49,043 nt of DNA from Defluviitaleaceae bacterium (lineage in GTDB: Bacteria > Bacillota > Clostridia > Lachnospirales > WQUN01). The DNA lies in contig WQVC01000007.1 of NCBI GenBank assembly GCA_009781765.1, positions 1 through 49,043 of the forward strand. Direction: 5' to 3'. This document shows positions 23,554 to 45,336 of the stretch, piece by piece. Within the stretch, counting starts at the first letter, position 1; every line of letters begins with the position of its first letter. The position numbers were made by a program, and so were the translations under genes. The notes beneath the pieces are model-generated. The model worked only from the letters and a program-made list of their open reading frames with translations, did no database searches and was not told where the DNA came from.

Positions 23554-23642
23554 CGCGAACGCAATTGAGAAGCCCGTTCAGGCTTCGTCGGAAAACGCGC
23601 TGATGGGTGCGGGCGATTTTCCGCCTCGTTTTCGAACAACGC
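23554..23642 (-). repeat. Family A palindromic repeat
   Basis: Read on the minus strand, this has the family A order: a degenerate left end, GAGGCGGAAAATCGC, GCGCGTTTTCCGACGAAG, CCTGAACGGGCTTCTCAA and a right end CGTTCGCG. It fills the gap between the convergent GNAT and bioY genes. The copy inside bioY begins about 300 bp away. Confidence 0.75.
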
Positions 23643-23656
23643 AAAATCAAATTGCT

Positions 23657-24388
23657 CTACTGTTTTATTTTGTTCCCGGAGAACGAAAGTGCCGCCTGAA
23701 TCCGCCGTCCGACGATAATCGCCGCGATTATTTTGAACAAATCCGGCAGGATAAACGGCGCGACAGTTGCCGCAAATGCCGTTGCAAAAGTTGACGACAT
23801 AACGACCACGAACCACGTCATACCAAACGTCCAGTTTACAATCGTTGCGGCAATCATCGCGGCGGCAAGAATGATATTTTGAGTGCGCTTTGAGCGCGCT
23901 TTTTTGTTGCGTTCGGAAGCTGCTTCGGGGGAATGTGAGCGAACGTTCTCGAGAAGCCCGTTCAGGTATCGTCGGAAACCGCGCCGAATCCCGCGATTTC
24001 CCGCGTCGCCTTCACGGTTCTCAGGGGCGTTCGCGGCAGCAGACGGCATTTGTCCCCGGCGTTCAGTGTGCGCCCGGCGCAACCCTGCGGCAAACGCAAG
24101 CAGCGGAAACGAAATCAAAAATCCGCCGGTCGGCCCGGCAAGCACTTCAAGACCGCTTCTCCCGCCGTGAAAAATCGGCACACCGACAAGCCCGAGCAAA
24201 ATGTAAATCAAAACCGCGACAACGCCTTTTTTCGGCCCGAGAATCATTCCCGCAAGCAAAATTGCCCATGTTTGCAGGGTAAACGGTACGCCGCCGGGTA
24301 GCGGAATTACAATAAACGCGCAAACGGCGATAACCGCTGTCATAATTGCTATGTAGCACAGGTCGCGAACCGAAAATGATTTCCGCAT
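23657..24388 (-). CDS. bioY: BioY biotin transporter with repeat-derived insertion
   Basis: The substrate-binding membrane component of an ECF-type biotin importer. The N-terminal half is typical: IPLPGGVPFTLQTWAILLAG, LVGVPIFHGGRSGLEVLAGP and TGGFLISFPLLAFAAG. The C-terminal half resumes with helices IILAAAMIAATIVNW and PFILPDLFKIIAAIIVG. Between them, about residues 119-184, is a hydrophilic, Arg/Asn-rich stretch that ordinary BioY proteins (about 180-195 residues) lack; this one has 243. Of this, 32 codons (23939-24034) are a family A repeat read in frame. The insert falls between helices, so the protein may still work. The ATG at 24388 follows AAGGAGG. Confidence 0.85.
   Translation of the reverse strand: MRKSFSVRDLCYIAIMTAVIAVCAFIVIPLPGGVPFTLQTWAILLAGMILGPKKGVVAVLIYILLGLVGVPIFHGGRSGLEVLAGPTGGFLISFPLLAFAAGLRRAHTERRGQMPSAAANAPENREGDAGNRGIRRGFRRYLNGLLENVRSHSPEAASERNKKARSKRTQNIILAAAMIAATIVNWTFGMTWFVVVMSSTFATAFAATVAPFILPDLFKIIAAIIVGRRIQAALSFSGNKIKQ
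23939..24034 (-). repeat. Family A repeat inserted in frame in bioY
   Basis: Exactly 96 bp from GCGTTCGC to GCGAACG, equal to 32 codons. On the minus strand it starts GCGAACGCCCCTGAGAACCG and ends GGGCTTCTCGAGAACGTTCGC-like, with CCGTGAAGGCGA and TTTCCGACGA inside, as in the copies at 39003 and 48975. The coding frame of bioY runs through it without a stop. Confidence 0.85.
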
Positions 24389-24411
24389 GAAAAAACCTCC
24401 TTGGGATGAAT

Positions 24412-25392: not shown

Positions 25393-25497
25393 ATGAGAGT
25401 GTTGAGAAATTATCCGTTCGCATACGCTCGCTCTCGAAAACCACCCGCCGGTTTTCGAGAACTCGTCGCAGCTCACGGCATTTTTCAACACTCTCAT
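25393..25497. repeat. Family B palindromic repeat
   Basis: ATGAGAGTGTTGAGAAAT at the left and ATTTTTCAACACTCTCAT at the right form an 18-bp terminal inverted repeat with one mismatch. The core holds CCGTTCGCA, an inner hairpin TCTCGAAAACC...GGTTTTCGAGA, and GCAGCTCACGG. The whole 105 bp can fold into one long hairpin. Confidence 0.85.
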
Positions 25498-25506
25498 CAT
25501 GTGTCG

Positions 25507-25545: not shown

Positions 25546-27281
25546 TTACGACAAAAAATTTTCAACAGCGGATTTTTCGATTGCAAACCCTTGCTTATAA
25601 CGCCGCAAAAATGTGTTGAAGCCGCTCACATCAACGGGATTCGGAGTTTCGCAAACGGGTTGCGTGCCGGCGAAAACTTCTTGCGCAAGGAAATCCTCCA
25701 ATGAAACATGAAGCCCGTTCGGCTTCGAGGGAATGTGCTGCTCTTCACACGTGTCCCCATGCAGCGGGAAGCGTTCGCTTCGCTCACTGCTGCTATTGGT
25801 GTCAGCTCCGCGCCTTGCGCGGTTCGAGGGAATGTGTCGCTCATCACACGTGTCCCCGGCTTCCACCCCGCGCTTGGCGCGGTCGGTGTCAGCTCCGCGC
25901 TTGGTGCGGGCGCGGTATGCCGCAAGCAACGCGATGCCCCACGCGCCGCCTTCGCCGGCAGATTCCGCTACATATACGGGAACATCAAGCGCGGCCGCCA
26001 TCATTTTTTGCCCGACGCCGGCGGTTTTGAAAAATCCGCCGTGTCCGAGCAAACGTTCGAGGGCGATATTTTCTTCCGCCAAAATGTCCATGCCGAGGCG
26101 CAACGTTGCAAGCGCGGAAAACAGCAGTGTGCGCATAAGGTTCGGCACGGTGAATTTTGCGTTGGGCAGCCGCGCAAAAAGCGGACGCCCCTCATCAAGA
26201 CCGGCAATCGGTTCGCCGGAAAAATAATTGTACGCCAAAAGACCACCGCCGTCGGAATCGGCGCACAGTGCGGCGTTGTAGAGTTTTTCGTACAGCTCGA
26301 CCTTGCCGACACTCGTCTTGCCGAACAGCCCCAATGCGTCGCCGAATAAATTCACCCACGCATCAAGGTCGGAGGTGCAATTATTGCAATGCACCATGGC
26401 AACGGGCTTGCCGGCGGGCGTTGTCACGATGTCAACCTCGGTGTAAGTTTTGCTCAAATTTTTTTCAAGCACAATCATCGCGAAAACTGAGGTGCCGGCG
26501 GAAACATTGCCGGTGCGTTCGGTGATGCTGTTTGTTGCAACCATGCCGGTTCCGGCGTCGCCTTCCGGCGGACACATCAAAACGCCGGATAAAAATTCGC
26601 CGGACGGGTCAAGGAGCTTCGCGCCGGCGTCCGTGAGTTTGCCGGCGTTTTCGCCGGCGTTAAGCACCTTTGGAAAAATATCTTCGATTTTGAATTTATC
26701 AAAAACGCCGGCAAATTTTCGGCTCATTTCCGCGTTGTAGTCTCCGTTTTCGACGGGAAACATGCCCGATGCGTCGCCGACACCGAGAACTTTTTCGCCG
26801 GTAAGCCGCCAATGCACGTATCCGGCCAAAGTGGTCATAAATGAAATTTCGGAAATATGCGACTCGTTGTTCAGCGCGGCCTGATACAAATGCGCAATGC
26901 TCCAACGCTGCGGAATATTAAAATCAAGCAGCGCGGTCAAGCGAGCGGCGGCTTCTTCCGTTGAAGTATTGCGCCATGTGCGAAACGGTATAAGCAGTTC
27001 GTCCGCCGCGTTGAACGCCATGTAGCCGTGCATCATCGCCGAAACGCCCATCGCCGCGACAGTTGTAAGCGACGTGCCGAAATTTTTTTTAAAATCCGCG
27101 CGTAATTTTGCAAAACTGTCGCGAAGTCCCGCCCAAATATCGTCCTCGCGGTATGTCCACACGCCGTTTTCGAGGCGATTTTCCCACGAATGCTCGCCCG
27201 ATGCGACCGGCACGAAATTTTCGTCGATTAAAACGGCCTTTATGCGCGTCGAACCAAGTTCGATTCCCAAATAATGTTCCA

Positions 27282-27282
<1 letters not shown>
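25546..27282 (-). CDS. FGGY-family pentulose kinase, probable L-ribulokinase, with insertion
   Basis: A 578-residue sugar kinase of the FGGY family. The ATP-domain start is [17 protein letters not shown], followed by [38 protein letters not shown] and [22 protein letters not shown]. Its place between GH51 arabinofuranosidase and araD suggests L-ribulose as substrate; xylulose is the alternative. Ordinary members are about 500-530 residues. Here some 65 extra residues near the C-terminus ([10 protein letters not shown] to SKPNGLHVS; 25711-25914) form two tandem repeats, each with a GDTC(D/E)E(R/Q)HIPS motif. The family sequence resumes at [12 protein letters not shown]. The ATG at 27282 follows GGAGGCGG and shares a base with the TAA of the GH51 gene. 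Confidence 0.88.
25725..25912. repeat. Tandem repeat inside the kinase gene
   Basis: Two units of about 100 and 88 bp start at 25725 and 25825. Each begins CGAGGGAATGTG, continues CACACGTGTCCCC and ends near GGTGTCAGCTCCGCGC. The first unit also carries GAAGCGTTCGCTTCGCTCAC. The words TTCGGGGGAATGTG at 23925 and 34159 point to further copies or fragments elsewhere. Confidence 0.75.
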
Positions 27283-29880
<2,598 letters not shown>

Positions 29881-34645: not shown

Positions 34646-34735
34646 CAAAAATAAAAACGAAGGAAAGATTTGCTCGCGGTTGTTGCCGATAGGTTTTTCA
34701 ATTTCCGGAAATCATCCCGGCTTCGATTTATAGTG
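34646..34735. other. Intergenic, possible remnant of a family E hairpin
   Basis: GCGGTTGTTGCCGATAGGTTTTTC at 34676-34699 has the right arm and T-run seen in family E, but I find no good left arm. Nothing else is recognised in this short stretch. Confidence 0.3.
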
Positions 34736-34876
34736 AAACAAGACAAAAACACTCTTGTTTCACCCCCAACCACTCGCACTTTTGCTTGCGCAAAAGCACT
34801 CGTGTCGGGGGTTCGTCAAATTGAAACCGTTCTTTTCGCGCAAGCGCGAAAGACCGTTTTCAACTTGACTCACTAC
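34736..34876 (-). repeat. Family C two-hairpin repeat
   Basis: On the minus strand it reads TAGTGAGTCAAGTTGAAAAC, then a hairpin around GCGCTTGCGC, CGGTTTCAATTTGACGAACC, CCCGACACGAGTGCTTTTGC, the inverse GCAAAAGTGCGAGTG, and a GTGAAACAAG end. Hairpin 1 pairs TCAAGTTGAAA with TTTCAATTTGA; hairpin 2 pairs CACGAGTGCTTTTGC with GCAAAAGTGCGAGTG. Other copies lie at 36475 and 48880. Confidence 0.8.
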
Positions 34877-34879
34877 ACC

Positions 34880-34973
34880 AAAAATCGCGCGAATGTGCGA
34901 TTTTTTAGTTTTTGTCGAACTTTTTTTAAAAAGTTCGTGGGGGTTCGGGGGCAAAGCCCCTGAAAAACTCATA
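34880..34973. terminator. Terminator hairpin plus family D module
   Basis: AAAAATCGC and GCGATTTTT (34880-34905) form a nine-bp stem usable as a terminator on both strands. It is followed by GTCGAAC-TTTTTTTAAAAA-GTTCG and GGGGTTCGGGGGCAAAGCCCC, the family D pieces. Confidence 0.55.
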
Positions 34974-35068
34974 AATTGTTTCCGGCACGTGTTCCCGGCG
35001 CACATGTCAACGCCTTATCAAAAATGTCATTAAAATGTCAAAAAACTCTTTAAAAATTTATTAAGAAA

Positions 35069-38289: not shown

Positions 38290-38738
38290 GATGCCATCAG
38301 GCTGCATAAATCCAGGAAAAATTCTTGGAAAATTTCCTGGAACGATTCCGGATATCATGGTACGAGAGTTGAAGTATACTTGCCCTGCAACCGAGAAATT
38401 AACGGTCGCTTCCATGCCAAAGGACGCTGTTTGCCATCTCAGGAAGGGGTTCGCCCTGAAACTGACCGCACCGCTCCGTGCCGAAGCCGCTGTATAACGG
38501 TTGCATGTAACACCATGCTTCACCGTACCACCCGCAACACCTGTACCACTGCAACACCTGTACCATCCGCCGCAACATATGAAAGCGGGCGGATGCATTC
38601 GGACACGGCCGACCGAATGCAAACGCCCACGTGCACACCTTCCATACAACGCGGCAACGCGGAGCGAAAGCTCTGCAAACCCGAAGTTCCCGGGGCTTCG
38701 GTTACTTACTTAAAACAAATCAATAAAAAAGAATCGCG
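38290..38738. other. Intergenic, no supported gene
   Basis: About 450 bases of higher-GC, C/A-rich DNA with open frames on both strands but no ribosome site or recognisable protein. GCAACACCTGTACCA is repeated at 38534-38548 and 38551-38565. It may be decayed coding DNA. Confidence 0.35.
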
Positions 38739-38800
38739 AAGCGAGCAAAAGCGCAACCGTAGGGAAATTCCCCTTTACGGCGTGTTTTTGCTCGCTTTAA
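38739..38800. repeat. Long imperfect hairpin
   Basis: GCGAGCAAAA...TTTTGCTCGC with the inner arms CCGTA.GGGAA and TTCCCC.TTACGG form a hairpin of nearly 60 bases, 14 bases before a family A copy. Confidence 0.5.
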
Positions 38801-38813
38801 ATTTTATTTTATG

Positions 38814-38876
38814 GCGAACGACCTTGAGAACCGTGAAGGCGAGGCGGGAAATCGCGGGTTTCTCAAGCACGTTCGC
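38814..38876 (+). repeat. Family A repeat, short copy (63 bp)
   Basis: GCGAACGACCTTGAGAACCG at the left and TTTCTCAAGCACGTTCGC at the right form clear terminal inverted repeats (GCGAACG, CTTGAGAA). The core GTGAAGGCGAGGCGGGAAAT, CGCGGG matches the other copies; the middle portion with TTTTCCGACGA is missing. Confidence 0.8.
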
Positions 38877-39002: not shown

Positions 39003-39126
39003 GCGAACGCCTCTGAGAATCGTGAAGGCGAGGCGGAAAAGCGCGGACAATGACGGGCGCACTTCGCCCGCACCGTTCAATGCGTTTTCCGACGACGCAT
39101 GAACGGGGTTTCTTGAGTAAGTTCGC
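39003..39126 (+). repeat. Family A repeat, long copy (124 bp)
   Basis: GCGAACGCCTCTGAGAATCG opens it and GGGGTTTCTTGAGTAAGTTCGC closes it in the same order as other copies, with GCGTTTTCCGACGACGCATG inside. It carries an extra palindrome GGGCGCACTTCGCCC. Separated from the short copy by 126 bases. Confidence 0.75.
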
Positions 39127-39138
39127 GACAAGGGGGGC

Positions 39139-45209: not shown

Positions 45210-45227
45210 GGGCGGAGTATATCACAA

Positions 45228-45336
45228 GAGAGTGTTGAAAAATAGCTTGAGCTGTGCCTGCATCGCAGGAAAATGACGGATTCAGGTCATTTTCCGAGAT
45301 GCGGCATATGCGAAAGCGTAATTTTTCAACACTCTC
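45228..45336. repeat. Family B palindromic repeat, 16-bp perfect inverted ends
   Basis: GAGAGTGTTGAAAAAT (45228-45243) and ATTTTTCAACACTCTC (45321-45336) are perfect inverses. The core has GGAAAATGAC/GTCATTTTCC and GCATC/GATGC inner stems, so the whole 109 bp folds as one hairpin. It lies between divergent genes and next to the putative -10 of the PilO-like gene. Confidence 0.9.

Follow-up and report, generated by a model that had tools for sequence, protein, structure and literature searches.

How does a dispersed palindromic repeat come to lie within the reading frame of a biotin transporter gene without interrupting it? The question is raised by bioY of a Defluviitaleaceae bacterium, for which a sequence-only reading had proposed that 32 codons are formed by a 96-bp palindrome with GCGAACG/CGTTCGC ends, that this palindrome belongs to an independent class of mobile elements surviving inside proteins, and that lengths which are multiples of three (96 and 63 bp) help such elements to persist. 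We followed these proposals up in the window, by which we mean the whole stretch of 49,043 nucleotides that was analysed and that constitutes contig C7 of the assembly (2.94 Mb, 154 contigs, 94% complete), in further stretches of the same genome, and in other genomes of the family. From Defluviitaleaceae MAGs reported in a study of the higher-termite gut, we infer that the organism is a termite-gut member of the Clostridia.

Results

The palindrome was found exactly where it had been placed, and it is stop-free in the bioY frame (counted from base 24391), in which it encodes BioY residues 120-151 (Table 1). It agrees with the consensus of the repeat family, here called family A, in 85 of its 96 bases, its ends are exact, and it folds stably into a hairpin on either strand (-48 kcal/mol, z -4.4; none of the shuffles reached this stability). 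The copies previously noticed at 38814, 39003, 48975 and 23554 (here 23555-23659) align with the bioY 96-mer with scores of 85, 68, 124 and 104, respectively, compared to 24 for the best shuffle. Ten relatives of BioY lack the loop. The idea of 32 extra codons holds for the family A part, but the full gain over the closest relative amounts to ~62 residues (counted by hand), because a palindrome of a second family, family B, surrounds the family A copy. The residues flanking the family A segment within the insert, RRAHTERRGQMPSA and SHSPEAASERN, match family B, and since this match stops at profile position 59 and resumes at position 59, family A sits in the loop of the family B hairpin. The insert is placed after the fourth predicted membrane helix. 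In the AlphaFold model the core has high confidence, while the first part of the insert is modelled with low confidence and the second part as a helix. According to this model, families A and B together would lengthen a BioY loop by ~62 residues and leave the predicted core undisturbed. The length of surface loops does vary in the BioY and PyrC families, which could point to an ordinary low-complexity expansion by slippage, unrelated to the dispersed repeat. This explanation is refuted by the alignment, as the agreement with the consensus, the exact ends and the occurrence of the same sequence in nine unrelated genes (see below) leave it a negligible probability.

Table 1 Features of the window and host genes of family A in the genome (positions refer to the window; C numbers denote contigs)
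Feature	Location	Strand	Remarks
bioY, S-component of a biotin ECF transporter	23657..24388	-	243 aa including inserts; Pfam BioY E 7e-38; best PDB match of the AlphaFold model is the BioY structure 4dve
Family A palindrome, 96 bp, in host gene bioY	C7 (window), 23939..24034	-	Read as 32 codons ANAPENREGDAGNRGIRRGFRRYLNGLLENVR; without the family-typical TATA/GATA flanks
First half of the family B copy split by family A	24036..24081	-	Profile positions up to 59, E 1.5e-5
Second half of the same family B copy in bioY	23894..23938	-	Profile positions 59-108, E 5e-4
Chimeric family A copy	23555..23659	-	Starts at the bioY stop codon; one arm intact, the other formed by a second repeat (CAATTTGATTTTGCG...)
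Two family B copies in an FGGY carbohydrate kinase ORF (25549-27501)	25704..25880	-	In frame, C-terminal part
Empty target site GGTTACT-TA-CTTAAAAC	38700..38716	+	Filled by family A on contigs C55 and C102, TA on both sides
Family A, 63-bp internally deleted form	38814..38876	+	Intergenic
Family A, long form, 125 bp	39003..39127	+	Intergenic
Family A copy truncated at the contig end	48975..49043	+
Family A host: pyrC	C13
Family A host: hydF	C85
Family A host: ylbJ	C48
Family A host: DASS anion transporter	C71
Family A host: RluB-type pseudouridine synthase	C61
Family A host: thiN, thiamine diphosphokinase	C22		117-bp copy
Family A host: amidase-like gene with a copper amine oxidase N-domain	C41		Copy inside the N-terminal hydrophobic segment
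Family A host: unassigned ORF with multiple membrane spans	C66		Two copies in opposite orientations

The resemblance among the copies, on which the sequence-only reading depended, is strong throughout the genome. A genome-wide search scored 40 family A matches with 84-100% identity, and a profile built from the copies detected 121 separate places, 84 of them near full length, in the 380 kb of the genome that were sampled. A pattern for the left arm (up to three mismatches) matched 73 times, a right-arm pattern, independent of the left arm, 75 times, and a looser left-arm pattern 99 times, against 0 matches for the reversed control. The heptamer GCGAACG by itself occurs in the window about as often as chance predicts (27 times, against 27.3 expected), and the signal is therefore the whole 96-mer. 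Most copies measure 96 or 95 bp; forms of 63, 100, 117 and 123-125 bp also occur. The element has TAT[A/C]GCGAACG ends, and its 96-bp core is a hairpin in which 97.5% of the cells are paired, compared to 28-46% in slid controls; compensatory double changes are few (4 cells, not above a slid control).

A search of 37 further genomes of the family, nine of them from the genus, yielded no full-length copy and only two matches, of 25 and 63 bp. Family A is apparently species-specific. Partial matches in other genera of the same family might be distant relatives (63 bp at 78% at L118 of G024; 25-30 bp at 90-100% at L077/L119 of G020). Carriage by phages or plasmids was rejected, since the exact arm pattern had no match in IMG/VR and the consensus none in phage and plasmid records. 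We also rejected a known structured RNA, as Rfam yielded no structured-RNA match in the window.

Some family A copies are associated with other repeats. A longer dispersed repeat of several hundred bases (window 38308-38800), with relatives on contigs C127 and C36, carries the 63-bp form. On contigs C35 and C105, a third inverted-repeat family, present in the window at 25395-25499 and 45225-45336 and with ends GAGAGTGTTGA(A/G)AAAT, directly adjoins a family A copy at its middle. A fourth repeat, represented at 34729-34975, has ends TATAGTGAAACAAG ... CTTGACTCACTATA that recall Correia-type ends, and on several contigs family A interrupts its hairpin. On contigs C14, C18, C15 and C109 (L089, L090, L103 and L111), 95-bp copies lie within a larger repeat, GCTTACGATA...GACAATGCATAGCC, directly upstream of genes, which is possibly regulatory or a larger mobile unit.

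Most family A copies have TATA next to one end and GATA or TATA next to the other, and two host repeats are present in both an empty and a filled state. At the first, the empty site of the window (38700; Table 1) has the filled counterparts GGTTACT-TA-TA[96]TA or GA-TA-CTTAAAAC on C55 and C102; at the second, empty GGTTTACT-TA-GAAAAA corresponds to filled GGTTTACT-TA-TA[96]GA-TA-GAAAAA (C31, C52). Both pairs fit a 100-bp unit (TA + 96 + GA/TA) plus a duplication of the target TA, by which the site grows by 102 bp, or 34 codons, in total. In 15 of the 33 copies with unique flanks the outer dinucleotides are the same on both sides, and as 14 of these 15 are TA, the TA could in part be sequence of the element itself. 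The bioY copy has neither TATA/GATA flanks nor a visible TA duplication, and the net-102-bp mode comes from the other sites.

With its terminal inverted repeats, short length, lack of a transposase gene and many dispersed copies (84 near-full-length places in the 380 kb sampled), family A has the features of a MITE, including the TA target duplication, seen at the two empty/filled pairs although not at the bioY copy. The empty and filled sites and the dispersal suggest that it is mobile. Neither a RAYT (Y1_Tnp) nor an IS630-type DDE_3 transposase was found in the 94%-complete genome, and both an origin from RAYT/REP and an IS630/Tc1-mariner partner were rejected on these grounds; a TA duplication is compatible with the latter but insufficient. 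Insertion at the tips of other hairpins, suggested by the nesting in bioY and by copies on C5, was rejected as a general rule, since in only 3 of 59 copies did the complementarity of the flanks exceed the 99th percentile of shuffled pairs.

For copies inside genes, we counted only ORFs with both sides in one recognisable protein (by NCBIfam or Pfam) or in one long continuous ORF, and left out long ORFs that cross copies without homology on both sides (e.g. on C79 and C43). By this count, nine genes contain a total of ten in-frame family A copies, each of 96 or 117 bp (Table 1). All ten use the GCG-AAC frame and have lengths divisible by three, with five copies in each orientation; without any influence of the frame, a third of the copies should be in this one, and an arithmetic estimate for all ten gives 3^-10 or ~2e-5. 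PyrC exceeds its counterpart in the sister L131 by exactly 34 residues (DEDV-MNPNFKM in the sister, DEDVA-[32 residues]-YANPNFKM here), its family A insert is absent from all nine congeners, and the alignment with PDB 3mpg skips 33 query residues at the insert. HydF of G002 and G009 is likewise without the family A insert, and the RluB-type protein has gained 35 residues. Most copies lie outside recognisable genes, and when the sequences on either side of the copies not counted in genes were joined in silico, no recognisable broken gene emerged. An independent class of mobile palindromes that survive in proteins, as had been postulated, is thereby supported by the in-gene copies, the two empty/filled pairs and the 34 residues of PyrC. 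The proposed benefit of lengths of 96 and 63 bp applies in part: the multiple-of-three length and the net 102 bp agree with it, but the 63-bp form was found in no gene, and an open frame on either strand counts for as much as the length does.

Two explanations question whether the copies are really part of these genes and proteins. The assembly consists of 154 contigs, many of which terminate in family A, so repeats could have been misplaced into genes at contig joins of the metagenome. However, the in-gene copies are contig-internal with coherent protein on both sides, the insert of PyrC measures exactly 34 codons, two different sites are seen both empty and filled, and random misjoins would not all be in frame; we regard such an artefact as highly improbable. 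Hardly more credible is a removal of the segment at the RNA or protein level or its skipping by the ribosome, as in a bypassing element, a mini-intron or an intein-like sequence. A strong hairpin inside core enzymes does resemble some bypassed segments, but all ten copies have a length of 3n and a frame continuous with the gene, neither of which removal or bypass would need, Rfam detected no catalytic RNA in the window, and 32 codons are far below the size of an intein.

The GCG-AAC frame is open on both strands in most family A copies. Among the distinct 96-mers, 32 of 36 have this property, compared to 25.2 expected under random substitution (P 0.0035), a figure inflated by the relatedness of the copies. 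Because 17% of pair-shuffled palindromes of the same composition are also open on both strands, the openness is partly luck, and it may be slightly favoured. This excess and the recurrence of the peptide in unrelated enzymes would be in line with a conserved functional peptide under selection, for which the palindromy is secondary. We consider this quite unlikely: besides the openness of shuffled palindromes, the two orientations are equally frequent and yield different peptides, and the majority of copies lie outside recognisable genes. Moreover, substitutions at codon positions 1, 2 and 3 number 67, 91 and 53; there is no third-position excess, and therefore the peptide does not look selected. 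The family A peptide is probably without a function of its own.

Family B comprises palindromes of ~66-90 bp. First-look candidates numbered 217 in the genome studied here, 465 in the sister G002 and 24 in G009; family B is more widespread than family A and probably older. It occurs in frame in hydF, where it accounts for 27 residues that G002 and G009 lack, and in pyrC, where it forms the second insert of PyrC and is absent from nine congeners. Further in-frame copies lie in ispH, tgt, aat, a DUF512 radical SAM gene, a cardiolipin-synthase-like PLD gene, murJ, a DUF2344 gene and a rhamnosidase, and two are found in the FGGY kinase ORF of the window (Table 1), which adjoins an ORF for a putative L-ribulose-5-phosphate 4-epimerase. 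In the sister G002 (L177, L184, L187), family B is in frame in long ORFs, e.g. twice in a HydG-like radical SAM protein.

Discussion

We are confident that family A is a non-autonomous, MITE-like palindrome that targets TA and whose open insert of 3n length is tolerated in proteins. A transposase acting in trans would insert the hairpin at TA. Given a net gain of 34 codons and an open frame on either strand, each orientation would have one phase in three that is harmless to the reading frame, while selection would remove gene insertions in other frames or of variants that are not 3n. The surviving copies would be translated as a surface or loop peptide of 32 to 39 residues that the host protein tolerates.

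The best reading is that family A would work like the Rickettsia palindromic elements (RPE) but represent a new family, whose sequence presumably differs from theirs. Palindromes that code in frame and reach an RPE-like frequency are known mainly from Rickettsia and Wolbachia. The elements of these two genera are hairpin repeats of ~100-150 bp that lie between genes and in frame in unrelated conserved genes (PMC2229807, PMC10969869), and a 2024 review called a similar process in other prokaryotes 'conceivable' (PMC10969869). Family A resembles RPE in its in-frame insertion into several unrelated conserved genes, but its host phylum differs, and its target duplication is TA, whereas that of RPE is listed as unknown (PMC2229807). 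It also differs from RPE in that both orientations are equally frequent in genes and that two co-resident families are nested in one gene.

Judged by analogy, RPE, ERIC/RU and NEMIS are the closest working analogues. The units of ERIC/RU measure 127 bp, 168 bp and 103 bp. The REPs, with 20-40 bp, are dispersed hairpin DNA like family A, but the genome carrying family A has no RAYT (Y1_Tnp). The TAT[A/C]GCGAACG ends of family A are probably unlike those of Correia/NEMIS. ERIC/RU-1, RU-2 and RU-3 of enterobacteria are MITE-like, with TA termini, TA target duplication and ORFs fused in frame to genes (PMC2759123). The host phylum of family A is another, and the genes that harbour family A include conserved metabolic and RNA-modification genes. 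Correia/NEMIS of Neisseria, again from a different phylum, comprise ~100-bp forms with TA at both ends and a 107-bp form with coding frames fused to genes (PMC2229807). In PARCEL, palindromic DNA encodes tandem 25-residue protein repeats in membrane proteins of unknown function (PMC2996958), whereas family A occurs as single, dispersed copies; tandem copies are seen for family B, but in housekeeping genes.

It is likely that the genus carries at least two unrelated palindrome families, of which A is apparently species-specific and B extends across several species, that both repeatedly enter core proteins in frame and nest there, and that a copy can survive in a gene whichever way it is oriented, thanks to a frame open on both strands. 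The process is seen here in a lineage of the Bacillota that offers clear contrasts: empty sites, sister species free of the insert, a net length gain of exactly 34 codons and the use of both orientations. How proteins tolerate or use the inserts is directly testable in soluble enzymes, e.g. PyrC and HydF. Gene models and orthology in these genomes have to be read with the warning that they include peptides of mobile elements. If the two-family proposal is true, an RPE-like channel for protein growth exists outside the Rickettsiales.
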